Part shown: positions 3,398 to 29,667 of the stretch, one piece after another
Position numbering within the stretch: position 1 is the stretch's first letter
How the letters are laid out: each line of letters begins with the position of its first letter
Assembly (NCBI GenBank): GCA_947453935.1
Contig: CANGJU010000014.1
Location: 1-33,816, forward strand
Direction of reading: 5' to 3'
DNA length: 33,816 bases
Source: Bacteroidota bacterium
GTDB taxonomy: Bacteria > Bacteroidota > Bacteroidia > AKYH767-A > OLB10
Position numbers and translations under genes: made by a program
Notes under the pieces: generated by a model
The model's input: only the letters and a program-made list of their open reading frames with translations
Databases searched by the model: none
What the model was told of the DNA's origin: nothing

Positions 3398-4204
3398 TTA
3401 TTTAAGAATTACCTCGTAAAAGTTTTCTTGTTCTAGTCCATCAAAAAACTTTAAAGTCGAAAAACAAAACGACTTTTTAGATACCCATGCAAGACTTTCG
3501 ATTCGCTGTCTTTTTAAATTAGCAATTGCAAATAAGTTCAGGCAATATTTCTTATGCTTGTCTTCTACTTTAATTATTGAAACTTCTGCCTCCTCTTCTT
3601 CAAAAATCGAATTCGAATAACTAACGATATAGTCATTTGACTTGTTTGGTAAATATTCAATTGTCCCATTGTCAAATGAAGATAAATCCGGAATTATTTT
3701 TCCTGAATTAACATCAATTAAATTAGCAGTAGCAAAAGCATCATTTAAATCAACACAACTTATAATTACAATATTTAATTTAGGAATCATTCCCCAGTAA
3801 GCAGGCAATACGCCATAAACAACATCAGTATCTTTATTTATGATTTTATCATCATCATTTTCAAATTCGGAGGTGTACAAATAGTGAATATCATTTGCGT
3901 TTACAACTAACTGAGAATCGGAAATAAGATTTACAAATTGATTGTTAATTGTAGTATCTAAACAATATATTGCTGACTGCATCAAAGAAATATAACGCAG
4001 TGAATCGATGGATAAAATTATAAACGATTTATTATTCGCTTCAATTCGCTCGTCATGATCAATATCCAAATCGATTAAAATCGGGTCGTTATTAAATACA
4101 CAATTCGTATCGAGACTAAATGCAGAGCTATTACTACGCTGACCAATTGCAATTGAATTAATCAGTATTAAAATTAAAAAAGCAAAACTACTTTTTCGAA
4201 GCAT
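3398..4204 (-). CDS. Unknown secreted protein overlapping bshA
   Basis: I do not recognise this 268-residue protein. It begins with a clear signal peptide (MLRKSSFAFLILILINSIA, cleavage likely near IGQ), so it is exported to the periplasm or beyond; there is no lipobox cysteine and no further membrane segment. The mature part is rich in Asp, Asn, Ser and Ile, with an acidic run EEEEAE near residue 200. The repeated short strand-like segments suggest a beta-rich fold, but no catalytic motif is visible. The ATG at 4204 (preceded by an in-frame TTG at 4207) lies inside the end of bshA, an overlap of 17 nt, so translation is probably coupled to bshA. It ends against the SUI1 gene with no spacer. 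Confidence 0.65.
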   Translation of the reverse strand: MLRKSSFAFLILILINSIAIGQRSNSSAFSLDTNCVFNNDPILIDLDIDHDERIEANNKSFIILSIDSLRYISLMQSAIYCLDTTINNQFVNLISDSQLVVNANDIHYLYTSEFENDDDKIINKDTDVVYGVLPAYWGMIPKLNIVIISCVDLNDAFATANLIDVNSGKIIPDLSSFDNGTIEYLPNKSNDYIVSYSNSIFEEEEAEVSIIKVEDKHKKYCLNLFAIANLKRQRIESLAWVSKKSFCFSTLKFFDGLEQENFYEVILK

Positions 4205-5321
4205 CAATTATCTGCTGGTAATATTTTTCATAAACAGGCATGATGTGATGAATATCAAAAGCCTTTGCTTGTTTCAATGCAGCTTGTCGGAATTCAACTA
4301 ACTTTTTATCATCCGTTAAAATTGCAAGTGCATTCTTAGCCATATCATCCACATCACCTACATTACTCATAAATCCGGTAACACCATTAATGTTTAATTC
4401 AGGCATTCCTCCTGAATTCGATGAAATAACAGGCACCTGACAAGCCATTGCTTCCAAAGCTGCCAAACCAAAACTCTCCGTTTCAGAAGGCATCACAAAT
4501 AAATCAGCAATTGACAAAACTTCTTCTACCATTTCCTGTTTTCCTAAGAAACGTACTTCATTATAAAATCCTTTTTCACGAGTCATCTCTTCAATCTTAT
4601 GTCGCTCTGGTCCATCACCAATCATAATAAGCTTTGCAGGAATCTTTGCGCGAACTCGTTCAAATACTTCAACCACATCTTGCACCCTTTTTACTTTTCG
4701 AAAGTTAGAAGTATGCACAATCAACTTTTCGTTATCAGGTGTAATCGCTTTTCTGAAATGATCTTTTCTTGACTTAGCAAATCGTTTTAAGTCGATGAAG
4801 TTGGGGATCACCTCTATCTCCTTATTGATTTTAAAATTGGCGTAAGTATCTTTTTTGAGGCTCTCTGAAACAGCAGTCACTCCATCTGAATGATTAATTG
4901 CAAATGTTACTACGGGCTCATAACTTGAATCCTTTCCAACAAGTGTTATATCGGTACCATGTAACGTTGTAACAATTGGAAGATATAATCCATGTGTTTT
5001 TAAAATCTGTTGCGCCATATAAGCCACCGACGCATGCGGGATTGCATAATGCACATGAAGGATATCGAGCTTTTCATGCAATGCTACATCGACCAACTTA
5101 CTCGTAAGCGCTGATTCATAAGGTATATAATCGAAAAGTGCATAAGGCGTTGCAGTTACTTCGTGATAGAAAATATTTTCTTTAAATCCATCTAATCGAA
5201 CAGGCTGACTATACGTAATAAAATGAATCTGATGACCTTTTTCTGCGAGGGCCTTTCCCAATTCGGTAGCTACTACTCCACTACCCCCAAAAGTTGGATA
5301 ACAAACAATGCCTATATTCAT
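4188..5321 (-). CDS. bshA: N-acetyl-alpha-D-glucosaminyl L-malate synthase
   Basis: A 377-residue GT4-family GT-B glycosyltransferase that joins GlcNAc from UDP-GlcNAc to L-malate, the first step of bacillithiol synthesis, in the cytoplasm. Diagnostic features are the N-terminus MNIGIVCYPTFGGSGVVATE, the stretch LHVHYAIPHASVAYMA, TTLHGTDITLVG, and the C-terminal nucleotide-sugar site MPSETESFGLAALEAMAC with the E-x7-E motif. The length is normal for BshA. No other bsh gene (bshB, bshC) is in the window. A TAACTTTG -7 box lies only 4 nt upstream of the ATG at 5321. The downstream unknown secreted gene overlaps its end. Confidence 0.95.
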   Translation of the reverse strand: MNIGIVCYPTFGGSGVVATELGKALAEKGHQIHFITYSQPVRLDGFKENIFYHEVTATPYALFDYIPYESALTSKLVDVALHEKLDILHVHYAIPHASVAYMAQQILKTHGLYLPIVTTLHGTDITLVGKDSSYEPVVTFAINHSDGVTAVSESLKKDTYANFKINKEIEVIPNFIDLKRFAKSRKDHFRKAITPDNEKLIVHTSNFRKVKRVQDVVEVFERVRAKIPAKLIMIGDGPERHKIEEMTREKGFYNEVRFLGKQEMVEEVLSIADLFVMPSETESFGLAALEAMACQVPVISSNSGGMPELNINGVTGFMSNVGDVDDMAKNALAILTDDKKLVEFRQAALKQAKAFDIHHIMPVYEKYYQQIIDASKK

Positions 5322-5325
5322 AAAA

Positions 5326-5333
5326 CAAAGTTA
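5326..5333 (-). promoter_or_regulatory. Bacteroidota -7 box (TAACTTTG) 4 nt before bshA
   Basis: On the minus strand the sequence TAACTTTG matches the Bacteroidota -7 consensus TAnnTTTG, and TTTT then ATG follow immediately. No well-spaced TTG (-33) element is evident: the nearest TTG gives a spacer of 25. If used, transcription would begin at or next to the ATG, giving a leaderless bshA mRNA. The start codon is fixed by the conserved BshA N-terminus. Confidence 0.5.
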
Positions 5334-9992: not shown

Positions 9993-10015
9993 TTCTCTTG
10001 ATTAGTAAAGTGGCG

Positions 10016-10023
10016 CAAAGTTA
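10016..10023 (-). promoter_or_regulatory. Bacteroidota -7 box (TAACTTTG) upstream of dapD
   Basis: On the minus strand TAACTTTG matches TAnnTTTG perfectly and lies 23 nt upstream of the dapD ATG, leaving a normal short leader. No well-placed TTG -33 element is visible. It is back to back with the ruvX box at 10044-10051. Confidence 0.5.
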
Positions 10024-10043
10024 TAAATAAGAACAGAACTTAT

Positions 10044-10051
10044 TACCTTTG
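10044..10051 (+). promoter_or_regulatory. Bacteroidota -7 box (TACCTTTG) 4 nt before ruvX
   Basis: TACCTTTG matches TAnnTTTG and is followed by CAAC and the ruvX ATG. Transcription from it would begin at or next to the start codon, so the ruvX-def-aroK mRNA may be leaderless. A second in-frame ATG at 10068 would give a 12-nt longer leader, but the MGRI N-terminus is usual for the family. Confidence 0.5.
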
Positions 10052-10055
10052 CAAC

Positions 10056-10469
10056 ATGGGAAGAATTATGGCCATTGATTATGGAAGCAAGCGAACAGGA
10101 CTGGCTGTAACTGACCCCCTCAAAATTGTTGCTAGTCCGCTGGATACAATTGCCACGCATTTATTGGTCGACTTTCTAAAAAACTATATCGAAAAGGAAG
10201 AAGTTGACAGTATTGTAATTGGCGACCCACGCCGATTGAATGGAGAAATGTCGGAAACGACACACCTCACAAACCAGTTTGTCAATAAACTAAAAAAAGA
10301 AATTCCTGCCATTAAAATAGTTCGCATGGATGAACGCTTCACCTCTAAAATTGCAGAGAAAAGTGTATTAACAATGGGACTACCTAAAATGAAACGACGA
10401 GATAAGTCGTTGATTGATAAAGTCAGTGCCACGATTATTTTACAGGATTATTTAAATACAATAGCTTAA
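10056..10469 (+). CDS. ruvX: RuvX/YqgF family putative Holliday junction resolvase
   Basis: A 137-residue RNase H-fold protein. The N-terminal IMAIDYGSKRTGLAVTD carries the first catalytic Asp (residue 8); GDPRRLNGEMSE and RMDERFTSKIA are the central conserved motifs, and RRDKSLIDKVSATIILQDYL holds the C-terminal acidic residue and helix. The family is required for 16S rRNA 5' end maturation in E. coli and has been proposed as a Holliday junction resolvase, so the exact role is uncertain. It heads the ruvX-def-aroK run, with def starting 10 nt downstream. Confidence 0.93.
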   Translation: MGRIMAIDYGSKRTGLAVTDPLKIVASPLDTIATHLLVDFLKNYIEKEEVDSIVIGDPRRLNGEMSETTHLTNQFVNKLKKEIPAIKIVRMDERFTSKIAEKSVLTMGLPKMKRRDKSLIDKVSATIILQDYLNTIA

Positions 10470-21572: not shown

Positions 21573-23419
21573 AGAGATTGACATTGAAAAATATTTTCAA
21601 CTCCTACCCTGTTCGACTTATTCTTTTTCTCGAACTGATATTTATTGCATTTCGCTTATTGTTTATTGCACTTGTATTCTTGAAAAATAAATCAATTGAT
21701 GCGATTGAAATTCTGTATTTATTCATTCATGCGCTTCGTCTCGACCTAGCAGCTATAAGTTACATAGCAGCATTACCTATTTTAATCTGGATAATTTATC
21801 AATACACTAATTCAAGATTACTACTAAAAATCAAAAATGCATTTCTCGTATTTGTTTTACCTATCGTAGCAATCATTCTGTTTTCAAATTTGATTATCTA
21901 TTTTGCGTGGGGCACTATTATCAATGCACGAGCAGTTTCATTTTTAAGTAGTCCGAAGGAAGTAATTGCTTCACTTAGCACTATTCAGCTTATCATCTTC
22001 ATTGTATTAGTGATTGTGTTAAGCTTCATCATTATAACTAATTATCAAAGTAGAATCAAATCAAAATTTGAACAACAGTTAAATTTAAATAAACATTTAA
22101 TTCTTCTCTGGTTGATTGTTTTACCAATTAGCATTCGTGGTGGTGTTCAACAAATACCCATCAACGAAAGCGTTTGTATGTTTTCTAAAAATGAGAACAC
22201 AAATCTTGCAACAGTAAATCCGTTTTGGTATTTAATCAATAGTGTTTACAAAGCGCAAAACATCAATAGCAGCGCCTATCATTTTATAGATGATGCGGAA
22301 GCAAATAAAATTACTTCTCAATTATATTCAACAAAAAATGATAGTCTACTTCAAATAACAACGATTAATAAACCAAACATTGTCACCATCATTTTAGAAA
22401 GCTGGACAGCAGATGTTATTGAATCGATGGGAGGTGAAAAAGGAACGACTCCATTTTTTAATTCCTTAGAAAAAGAAGGTTTGTTATTTGAAAATATTTA
22501 TGCTGCAGGAAAGCGAACAGACTTAATGTTTCCTTCTTTGATTTCAGGGTTTCCAGCAATGCCGAATGTGAGTGTAATTAAATATTCTGATAAGTCCGCT
22601 CATCTTCCATTTATAACGCATGCGATAAAAAGCAAAGGCTATCAAACCTCATTTAATTATGGAGGCGAGGTTGAATTTGCTAATATGAAATCGTACTTAA
22701 CACAAGCGAAATTTGATGTGATAAAAGGAAAAGAATCATATCCAATTGAACAATGGACGAGCAAGTGGGGAGTTTACGATGAAGTATTATTTGAAAAATC
22801 GATTGCTACAATCAATTCACTTATGCCTCCGTTTTATTCAGCAATCTTGACTCAAAGCACGCATGAGCCGTTTGCAATTCCTATTCAACCCAAATTTTCA
22901 GGCAATATTGAATCTGTCAAGTTTAAGAATGCAGCTTATTATACCGATTATTGTTTGAAGAAATTCTTCGACAAAGTAAAGAAGGAAAAATGGTATAACA
23001 ACACGATTTTTATTTTAGTGGCTGACCACGGACATATACTTCCGCGCAACAATGATTATAGTTCGCCAGCAGCATTCAGAATTCCGTTATTGATTGTTGG
23101 TCCTGGATTGAATGCCGTATTTAAAAACAAACGAATCCGCAATATCGGCAACCAGCAGGATTATGCTGCTACGATTAAAAGTATTTTAAATCTTGATATA
23201 GACTTACCGTTCAGTAATAACCTACTTAATCTTAATAGAAACGATTTCTGTTATATGAATTACGATGATGGATTTGTGTGGAAAAATAATCAAGGAGCCT
23301 TAAAACTGAATTACAGTAATAAATCGGTTACTCCAATTGATGGACAGCCTGACAGCAGTAGCATTATACAAGGAAAATCATTTATTCAATCAGCCTACCA
23401 CTATTTTGTTAATCTTTAA
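21569..23419 (+). CDS. LtaS-type membrane sulfatase-fold phosphoglycerol transferase
   Basis: A 616-residue inner-membrane protein with about five N-terminal helices (within residues 15-195), then a periplasmic alkaline phosphatase/sulfatase-fold domain from about 270. Family residues are visible: the metal Glu in IVTIILESW, the catalytic Thr in YAAGKRTDLMFPSL, a conserved His in TQSTHEPF, and the metal Asp-His of VADHGH. In Gram-positive bacteria LtaS polymerises glycerol phosphate; in Gram-negatives relatives transfer phosphoglycerol or phosphoethanolamine to glycans or lipid A. The substrate here cannot be told from sequence. It overlaps the nuclease-like gene by 4 nt. The kdsC promoter begins inside its last codons. 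Confidence 0.85.
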   Translation: MKRLTLKNIFNSYPVRLILFLELIFIAFRLLFIALVFLKNKSIDAIEILYLFIHALRLDLAAISYIAALPILIWIIYQYTNSRLLLKIKNAFLVFVLPIVAIILFSNLIIYFAWGTIINARAVSFLSSPKEVIASLSTIQLIIFIVLVIVLSFIIITNYQSRIKSKFEQQLNLNKHLILLWLIVLPISIRGGVQQIPINESVCMFSKNENTNLATVNPFWYLINSVYKAQNINSSAYHFIDDAEANKITSQLYSTKNDSLLQITTINKPNIVTIILESWTADVIESMGGEKGTTPFFNSLEKEGLLFENIYAAGKRTDLMFPSLISGFPAMPNVSVIKYSDKSAHLPFITHAIKSKGYQTSFNYGGEVEFANMKSYLTQAKFDVIKGKESYPIEQWTSKWGVYDEVLFEKSIATINSLMPPFYSAILTQSTHEPFAIPIQPKFSGNIESVKFKNAAYYTDYCLKKFFDKVKKEKWYNNTIFILVADHGHILPRNNDYSSPAAFRIPLLIVGPGLNAVFKNKRIRNIGNQQDYAATIKSILNLDIDLPFSNNLLNLNRNDFCYMNYDDGFVWKNNQGALKLNYSNKSVTPIDGQPDSSSIIQGKSFIQSAYHYFVNL

Positions 23420-23437
23420 CCAAAATAAATATCTTTG
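23405..23437 (+). promoter_or_regulatory. Promoter of kdsC (TTTG-N21-TATCTTTG)
   Basis: TTTG at 23405-23408 (-33) is followed after 21 nt by TATCTTTG at 23430-23437 (-7), a full match to the Bacteroidota promoter TTTG-N19-21-TAnnTTTG. Only AAGC separates the -7 box from the kdsC ATG, so the transcript should start at or beside the start codon. The -33 element lies in the last codons of the LtaS-type gene. Confidence 0.7.
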
Positions 23438-23441
23438 AAGC

Positions 23442-23939
23442 ATGAATTTTAAAGAGCGATTACAAAAAGTAAAGTGTTTTGTTTTTGATATTGATGGCGT
23501 CTTAACAGATGGCCAGTTACACATTTTACAAGATGGCACTATGCTTCGTAATATGAACATCAAAGATGGCTATGCATTGCGTCAGGCATTTTTGAAAAAC
23601 TATCCCATCTTCGTTATAAGTGGCAGCAACGCGGAAGGCGTAAAACAGCGATTAAAGAATTTAGGAATAGAAGAAGTTTATTTGAACTGCAAAGACAAAC
23701 TAGATCAGTTATCAATGTTACTCGTTAAATACCATTTGACTTACGAGGATGTTTTATACATGGGTGATGACATTCCAGATTTAGAAGTGATGAAAAAATG
23801 TGGAGTAGCTACTTGTCCGAATGATGCAGTTCATCAAATAAAGAATATTTCCATTTACATATCCGATTATTGTGGTGGCAAAGGCGCTGTGAGAGACGTT
23901 ATTGAACAAACACTAAGATTACATGGCCACTTCGAATAA
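23442..23939 (+). CDS. kdsC: KdsC-type HAD phosphatase (KDO 8-phosphate phosphatase)
   Basis: A 165-residue HAD-family enzyme lacking a cap domain, as in KdsC. Motif I is FDIDGVLTDGQL with the nucleophile and acid Asp residues, motif II is VISGSNAEGVKQRLKNLG, the conserved Lys is in NCKDKLDQL, and motif IV is YMGDDIPDLEVM, followed by CPNDAVHQIKN and the C-terminal CGGKGAVRDVIE that reaches the neighbouring subunit in tetramers. It releases phosphate from KDO 8-phosphate in lipid A inner-core synthesis; close relatives act on other sugar acids. It overlaps the next gene by 17 nt and has its own strong promoter. Confidence 0.88.
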   Translation: MNFKERLQKVKCFVFDIDGVLTDGQLHILQDGTMLRNMNIKDGYALRQAFLKNYPIFVISGSNAEGVKQRLKNLGIEEVYLNCKDKLDQLSMLLVKYHLTYEDVLYMGDDIPDLEVMKKCGVATCPNDAVHQIKNISIYISDYCGGKGAVRDVIEQTLRLHGHFE

Positions 23940-25484: not shown

Positions 25485-26390
25485 ATGAGAAAAGCCTACC
25501 TGCAACTACAACTTGCTATTTTGCTTTGGGGCTTTACCGCAATACTCGGCAAATTAATTTTGTTAGATGAAGGCTTGCTTGTGTGGTACAGAATGGGCAT
25601 TAGCAGTATCTCTACCCTACTCTTTGTTTTGATTTCTAAATCATCTCTAAAGATTAACAAACAAGAAATTATTCGATTAGCAGGAATTAGTTTTTTAATA
25701 ACGCTTCATTGGATAACTTTTTACGGTGCAATTAAAGCATCTAATGTTTCTATTGCCATTAGTTGTTTTTCATCGATAGCATTGTTTACTGCATTGATTA
25801 ATCCGATTATCAATAAAGTAAAAATTAATAAAATTGAAATAATATTAGGATTAGGTGTTATTGCCGGAATAGGAATCATATTTACCATCCATCAGCTATA
25901 TTGGAAAGGAATACTTCTTGCCATTATCAGTGCTTTTTTAGGTGCGTTATTCACAGTATTGAACAAAAACATTTCTAACAAAATTGAACCAGCCACAATT
26001 ACGTTTTATGAGTTATTCTTCGGATTCATATTATTGACCATTGCCTTACCATTATGGTTTGGAATTAATAATTCAGGCCCTGAATTACCTTCTGAAAAAG
26101 ACTGGATTTACTTAATCATTCTTGCAGTAGTTTGTACAACTGTTCCATTCACATTGTCAATGCATGCCATTAAAAAGCTCGATGCATTTACGATGAACTT
26201 ATCACTTAACCTTGAACCTGTTTACAGTATTATTTTAGCCATCTTTTTATTTCACGAAAACGAAGCCGTGGGATATAGTTTTTATATCGGCACCGGCATT
26301 ATTCTCCTAACCGTGATGTGGCATGGTTATACAAAGTCGGTAGCTGCAATTGATAAAAAACTTGAGAAAGAAAAATACAATTACGAATAA
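25485..26390 (+). CDS. EamA/DMT-family transporter
   Basis: A 301-residue inner-membrane protein with about ten helices arranged as two EamA repeats: residues 1-135 (LAILLWGFTAILGKLILLDE, WYRMGISSIS) and 145-285 (AIISAFLGALFTVLNKN, then NLSLNLEPVYSIILAIFLFH). These proteins export small metabolites such as amino acids or purines, but the substrate cannot be predicted. It is the last gene of the kdsC run and is followed by a strong bidirectional terminator. Confidence 0.88.
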   Translation: MRKAYLQLQLAILLWGFTAILGKLILLDEGLLVWYRMGISSISTLLFVLISKSSLKINKQEIIRLAGISFLITLHWITFYGAIKASNVSIAISCFSSIALFTALINPIINKVKINKIEIILGLGVIAGIGIIFTIHQLYWKGILLAIISAFLGALFTVLNKNISNKIEPATITFYELFFGFILLTIALPLWFGINNSGPELPSEKDWIYLIILAVVCTTVPFTLSMHAIKKLDAFTMNLSLNLEPVYSIILAIFLFHENEAVGYSFYIGTGIILLTVMWHGYTKSVAAIDKKLEKEKYNYE

Positions 26391-28875: not shown

Positions 28876-29655
28876 CTAAAGACCCTTTTGTTTTGCCTCA
28901 TTCCAGAATACGTCCATCTCATCCAACGACAAATGATCAAAAGAAAGGCTGTTTTCTTTGATCTTCTCCTCCATGAATTGAAATCGTCGAATGAACTTTT
29001 TATTGGTTCGTTCTAATGCTTCTTCTGGATTTATATTTTTAAATCGAGCGTAATTGACAAGTGCAAATAATAAATCACCAAACTCGTCTTCCGCCTTTGT
29101 TTGCTCACCGTTCTCTACCTCAATTTTAAATTCTCGCAATTCTTCTTCTACTTTTTCAAATACCTGCTCTTCTTTTTCCCAATCGAAACCAACGGCACGA
29201 GCTTTTTCCTGAATACGCATCGACTTTATCAATGCAGGCAAGGATGTTGGAACACCTCCTAAAACAGATTTATTGCCTTCTTTTAATTTTAACTTCTCCC
29301 AATTCTGACTAACTTCTGCTGCATCTTGCACTTTAACATCGCCATAAATATGTGGGTGACGATGAATTAATTTTTCACAAATACCATTCAGCACATCTGC
29401 AATATCAAACTCGTTGGTTTCAGAAGCGATTTTCGCATAAAAGACCATATGCAAGATTATATCCCCTAATTCCTTTCTAACTTCCTGAACATCATTCTCC
29501 ATAATGGCGTCTGTCAGCTCGTAAACTTCTTCAATTGTCAAATGGCGAAGGGTCTGCATTGTCTGTTTCTTATCCCACGGGCACTGCGATCGGAGGTCAT
29601 CCATTATAGTTAACAACCTTTCAAAAGCCGCTTTTTTATCTTCCATTGTATGCAT
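28876..29655 (-). CDS. mazG: Nucleoside triphosphate pyrophosphohydrolase MazG
   Basis: A protein of about 260 residues with the tandem MazG layout. The N-terminal copy has CPWDKKQTMQTLRHLTIEEV, the E-x-x-E metal site in EEVYELTDAI, and RKELGDIILHMVFYAKIA. The C-terminal copy has FDWEKEEQVFEKVEEELREF and AEDEFGDLLFALVNYARF. It hydrolyses NTPs or dNTPs to monophosphates plus pyrophosphate. The frame is open up to an ATG at 29703, but the -7 box TACCTTTG at 29660-29667 lies inside that extension, so the ATG at 29655 (4 nt after the box) or 29646 (best by family alignment) is the likely start. Confidence 0.93.
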   Translation of the reverse strand: MHTMEDKKAAFERLLTIMDDLRSQCPWDKKQTMQTLRHLTIEEVYELTDAIMENDVQEVRKELGDIILHMVFYAKIASETNEFDIADVLNGICEKLIHRHPHIYGDVKVQDAAEVSQNWEKLKLKEGNKSVLGGVPTSLPALIKSMRIQEKARAVGFDWEKEEQVFEKVEEELREFKIEVENGEQTKAEDEFGDLLFALVNYARFKNINPEEALERTNKKFIRRFQFMEEKIKENSLSFDHLSLDEMDVFWNEAKQKGL

Positions 29656-29659
29656 CGGG

Positions 29660-29667
29660 CAAAGGTA
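29660..29667 (-). promoter_or_regulatory. Bacteroidota -7 box (TACCTTTG) of mazG
   Basis: On the minus strand TACCTTTG is followed by CCCG and an ATG (29655), and by a second in-frame ATG 9 nt later (29646). It rules against the ATG at 29703 as start. No clear -33 TTG is seen. Confidence 0.5.

Follow-up and report, generated by a model that had tools for sequence, protein, structure and literature searches.

Promoter boxes and genes in the window

The window analysed here, a stretch of 33,816 nt, corresponds to contig 14 of a 2.23-Mb assembly that comprises 203 contigs and is about 80% complete. Among named relatives, the closest are metagenome assemblies of Bacteroidota, several of which are labelled Chitinophagaceae or Chitinophaga. 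Four genes in the window, whose identities were confirmed by NCBIfam or Pfam profiles, have an ATG start codon that is preceded, at a distance of exactly 4 nt, by a perfect match to the -7 element TAnnTTTG. The first of them, kdsC (23442..23939, forward strand), is present in the list of open reading frames and encodes a KDO-8-phosphate phosphatase of the YrbI family (NCBIfam TIGR01670, 2.2e-38); its box lies at 23430..23437 on the same strand (TATCTTTG-aagc-ATG). On the reverse strand, bshA (4188..5321; NCBIfam TIGR03999, 2.6e-170) follows a box at 5326..5333 (TAACTTTG-tttt-ATG). The ruvX gene (10056..10469, forward strand; Pfam RuvX, 9e-36), which is divergent from dapD, is preceded by a box at 10044..10051 (TACCTTTG-caac-ATG), and mazG (28876..29655, reverse strand; NCBIfam NF007113, 2.5e-99), read from the ATG at 29655 and divergent from a PagL-like gene, by a box at 29660..29667 (TACCTTTG-cccg-ATG). 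All four boxes also fit the narrower motif TAHHTTTG, with G absent from both variable positions. The sequence-only reading had singled out these arrangements as signs of a leaderless gene set, and each of them was borne out. The contrast that it drew with dapD likewise holds, with the -7 box of this gene (TAACTTTG, 10016..10023, reverse strand) located 23 nt before the ATG, as appropriate for a leadered mRNA. Within the window, TAnnTTTG-N4-ATG occurs five times, compared with 1.1 matches expected, and at least five matches were obtained in 1 of 100 shuffles. The fifth match (25555-25569) was rejected as a member of the group, as it is internal to an EamA transporter gene and attributable to chance.

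The short spacing could be an artefact if the start codons had been miscalled and the true ATGs were located further downstream, such that the boxes would leave leaders of normal length. Indeed, mazG and ruvX contain a second in-frame ATG at 13 nt and 16 nt from the box, respectively, and the mazG reading frame offers ATGs both upstream (29703) and downstream (29646) of the start at 29655. However, relatives favour the latter, since genomes G005 and G007 lack the ATG that lies 9 nt downstream, and the second ATG of ruvX is absent in many genomes, with the short spacing being retained in each case. Moreover, as previously claimed, the starts of bshA and kdsC are fixed by their N-termini: BshA aligns with its family model from residue 1, as does TrmD, the product of another gene with the 4-nt spacing, and kdsC keeps the sequence MN(F/L)KER. 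Similarly, ruvX retains a conserved M[GAP]RI start ahead of AIDYG. In addition, the genome-wide distances described below form a spike of a single nucleotide at 4 nt and are unoccupied above background at 0-3 nt, a pattern beyond what random miscalls could create. We thus regard miscalled start codons as an extremely unlikely explanation.

It is also conceivable that the boxes have little or no promoter activity and that upstream promoters or read-through provide the mRNAs with ordinary leaders. This notion finds some support in the positions of kdsC and bshA, which follow co-directional genes at distances of 22 nt (the upstream gene ending at 23419) and 63 nt, respectively, and both may additionally be carried on read-through transcripts from these neighbours. 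By contrast, ruvX and mazG are transcribed divergently from their neighbours and should therefore depend on their own boxes; the respective intergenic gaps measure 63 and 51 nt, and no further TAnnTTTG motif is found within 120 nt upstream of either gene. In the genome sample, 13 of 23 genes that have the 4-nt spacing are divergent from their upstream neighbour. Given that the spacing is, in addition, conserved to the base, we consider it very unlikely that the boxes are bypassed in this manner.

A further feature ascribed to the kdsC promoter, a TTTG -33 box, is present upstream of the gene, but its position is not kept in all members of the genus. Upstream of the pooled boxes, no position was enriched for TTTG or TTG, so that the motif was set aside as support for the promoters and carries little weight in the case of kdsC. 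A weak -33 motif has been reported for F. johnsoniae as well (PMC6847099).

Box-to-ATG distances across the genome

The spacing was then determined in a 1.06-Mb sample of the same genome (about half of the assembly, taken as stretches), in which a simple codon-usage caller identified 782 genes. For every perfect box, we recorded how far downstream the next gene had its first in-frame ATG, and 29 permutations of the motif, treated in the same way, served as a control. The genome-wide excess of the 4-nt spacing implied by the sequence-only reading was clearly evident: 24 genes have a box at exactly this distance, whereas the permuted motifs averaged 0.6 and reached at most 2. With the stricter motif TAHHTTTG, 23 genes remain (Poisson p ~1e-28). 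Chance matches in an AT-rich genome do occur, as illustrated by the one at 25555 among the five in the window, but as an explanation of the class as a whole they are refuted by this excess at gene starts and by the conservation of the spacing, leaving them a negligible probability.

The distribution has a sharp edge between 3 and 4 nt. Distances of 0, 1, 2 and 3 nt are found for 1, 0, 1 and 1 genes, respectively, without any excess, while those of 5, 6, 7 and 8 nt (8, 6, 7 and 5 genes) lie above background. A second, broad mode follows at 17-20 nt (12, 14, 9 and 10 genes), and the leadered majority is set apart from the short-spacing genes in that most of its boxes stand at 17-20 nt or at larger distances. 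Between the two groups, at 9-13 nt, the counts dip, which could mean that leaders of about 5-9 nt are disfavoured.

The spike at 4 nt is specific to the box and biased with regard to the start codon. Most one-base changes in the motif abolish it, with the exception of TAnnTTTA, which keeps a smaller excess (7 genes at 4 nt and 7 at 5 nt), suggesting that this variant represents weaker leaderless promoters outside the present counts. At a distance of 4 nt, we found 24 ATG, 2 GTG and no TTG start codons in the own-genome sample, and all four genes of the window start with ATG. Extrapolation from the roughly 24 genes in 1.06 Mb puts the predicted leaderless class at about 50 genes in the 2.2-Mb assembly. 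Besides the four in the window, its members include ruvB, trmD, mnmH and the genes for a xerD-type recombinase, an L-2-hydroxyglutarate oxidase and a ComEB-like deaminase; no common pathway stands out among the genes with the 4-nt spacing in this genome.

Spacing among related genomes

Comparison of the upstream regions of orthologues in related genomes revealed that the spacing is conserved gene by gene. For mazG, the 4-nt spacing is found in 12 of 12 genomes from the genera g1, g2 and g7, despite differing flanks. For kdsC, it is retained in all seven genomes of the genus as well as in G059, a member of another family, whereas two g2 genomes have 5-6 nt instead. For ruvX, 23 of the 30 genomes from the order carry a perfect box 4-8 nt ahead of the conserved M[GAP]RI start, 11 of them with a spacing of exactly 4 nt, and a box at 4-8 nt recurs in five of nine further genomes of the class that belong to other families. 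The spacing upstream of bshA amounts to 4 nt in eight genomes, five of the genus and three of genus g2, to 16 nt in two other members of the genus and to 16-26 nt elsewhere. The two forms share the same TAACTTTG box, which is positioned at 16 nt in L265 and L268 (genomes G003 and G006) and at 4 nt in L261-L264, L266 and L267. Among the perfect boxes listed for bshA, none displays an intermediate spacing between 4 and 16 nt. This pattern suggests that genes may pass directly from one state to the other, leaderless or leadered, without going through a gradual series of leader lengths.

The spike is not confined to a single genome. In the pooled samples of other genomes of the class, 32 genes have a box at 4 nt, compared with a total of four at 0-3 nt and a mean of 9.5 at 5-8 nt. 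Several of these samples are small, and G035, G038 and G076 contribute 0, 1 and 1 genes with this spacing, respectively. When only genes preceded by a perfect box at 4-60 nt are considered, 14% have it at exactly 4 nt and 27% at 4-8 nt in the genome of the window, and 20% and 48%, respectively, in G089 (sample of 196 genes), shares that overstate the proportion of all transcripts because leaders longer than about 56 nt and imperfect boxes are ignored. In the stretches sampled from G089 (L201-L213), boxes at 4-8 nt precede about 24% of all called genes. Raw counts in 100 whole genomes without gene calls gave 7167 matches for N4, 5243 for N3 and 3409 for N1, with N4 exceeding both controls in 69 of the 100 genomes and with G089 (317/130/90) and G093 (153/28/13) as outliers; these counts are rough, since the background varies with the reading frame and the majority of matches lie away from gene starts.

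Predicted transcription start and known leaderless systems

The position of the box relative to the start site has been mapped in two Flavobacterium species. In F. johnsoniae, RNA-seq located the start 4 or 5 nt beyond the box, whose G occupies position -5 (PMC6847099), and in F. psychrophilum, the box spans positions -12 to -5 (PMC9723704). With this geometry, a 4-nt spacer would place the +1 site on the A of the ATG, and we infer this position for kdsC (23442), bshA (5321), ruvX (10056) and mazG (29655). The empty range of 0-3 nt independently points to the same start site, because a box any closer to the start codon would yield an mRNA devoid of a complete AUG. The base preceding the ATG is a C or T at 39 of 55 sites with the 4-nt spacing, as opposed to 98 of 186 leadered genes at the same offset from the box (p = 0.02).

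On the strength of these sequence statistics and of the conservation among relatives, the proposed leaderless gene set is supported, and the four genes of the window very probably belong to a discrete class whose promoters are ordinary sigma-A promoters placed such that the mRNA begins on the A of the ATG. Being of the sigma-ABfr type, these promoters would have TAnnTTTG at -12 to -5 and start transcription on the first base of the start codon. The resulting mRNA would begin with 5'-AUG and be translated without a leader, with the terminal AUG presumably being recognized by a ribosome that already carries the initiator tRNA. Such recognition of 5'-terminal AUG codons is known from other bacteria.

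A variant of this model is that transcription starts less than 4 nt after the box, giving rise to ultra-short leaders of 1-5 nt instead of strictly leaderless mRNAs. It could draw on the distances of 5-8 nt, which are above background as well (about six genes each in the own genome), on the start sites located 5 nt beyond the box in F. johnsoniae (PMC6847099) and on G089, in which three boxes and, in addition, that of bshA (L354; TATCTTTG-gca-ATG) lie at 3 nt. However, a +1 site closer than 4 nt would make spacings below 4 nt usable, and these should then be populated, whereas the counts in this range are at background. Ultra-short leaders thus appear rather unlikely, and their translation may differ little from that of leaderless mRNAs.

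Leaderless mRNAs are already known in Bacteroidota, at a level of a few percent. They account for 5.5% of mRNAs in F. psychrophilum (PMC9723704), while 3.7% of the 5' untranslated regions in B. thetaiotaomicron are shorter than 10 nt (PMC7366714) and 13% of the leaders in F. johnsoniae are at most 10 nt long, with 87% being longer (PMC6847099). These species share with the present case the phylum, the -7 box, the distance from the box to the start site and the occurrence of a minority of leaderless mRNAs. As far as the consulted parts of these studies go, they provide percentages derived from RNA and stress the rarity of such transcripts. The low rates reported from start-site studies of other Bacteroidota count against our explanation, as does the raw whole-genome comparison, in which N4 surpassed both controls in only 69 of 100 genomes. 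We see about an even chance that leaderless initiation constitutes a regular second mode of expression in several lineages of the Bacteroidia, pinned by a promoter rule of one-nucleotide precision, that it involves a large share of sigma-A promoters in some of them, such as G089, and that the low rates in Flavobacterium and Bacteroides are untypical of the class. A leaderless share that depends on the lineage would be a possible surprise.

In an earlier genome survey by Zheng et al. (2011), only one of the 37 Bacteroidetes/Chlorobi genomes was reported to contain leaderless genes (PMC3160421). It similarly relied on boxes too near the start codon to leave room for a leader but, unlike our analysis, scanned for Pribnow-type signals instead of TAnnTTTG, and its authors cautioned that promoters of a non-Pribnow type would escape detection (PMC3160421). 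Scans of this type would thus overlook the leaderless genes predicted here. The leaderless genes of Actinobacteria and Deinococcus-Thermus likewise show a constant spacing between box and ATG in many genes, but they use the box of a different sigma factor and make up a far larger share, with averages of 19% and 39%, respectively (PMC3160421). The N4 rule, its gene-by-gene conservation across genera and the existence of richer lineages are not described in the consulted parts of the Flavobacterium and Bacteroides start-site studies, and our search of the open-access literature, with subscription papers mostly outside its scope, yielded no description of the rule or its conservation. What seems to be added to the known picture is the sharply defined spacing, the fact that it is conserved and the apparently high share in some lineages.

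Shine-Dalgarno pairing is hardly used in Bacteroidota, and the predicted leaderless class bears on the question of how their ribosomes find the start codon. As TAnnTTTG-N4-ATG can be read directly from a genome, it delivers a defined set of genes to be set against those with A-rich leaders in ribosome profiling. The N4 spacing also offers a rule for the annotation of start codons in the phylum. Both types of promoter can be found side by side between dapD and ruvX, whose start codons are separated by only 63 nt (9993-10055) and whose divergent boxes form a pair composed of a leadered (23 nt) and a predicted leaderless (4 nt) promoter.
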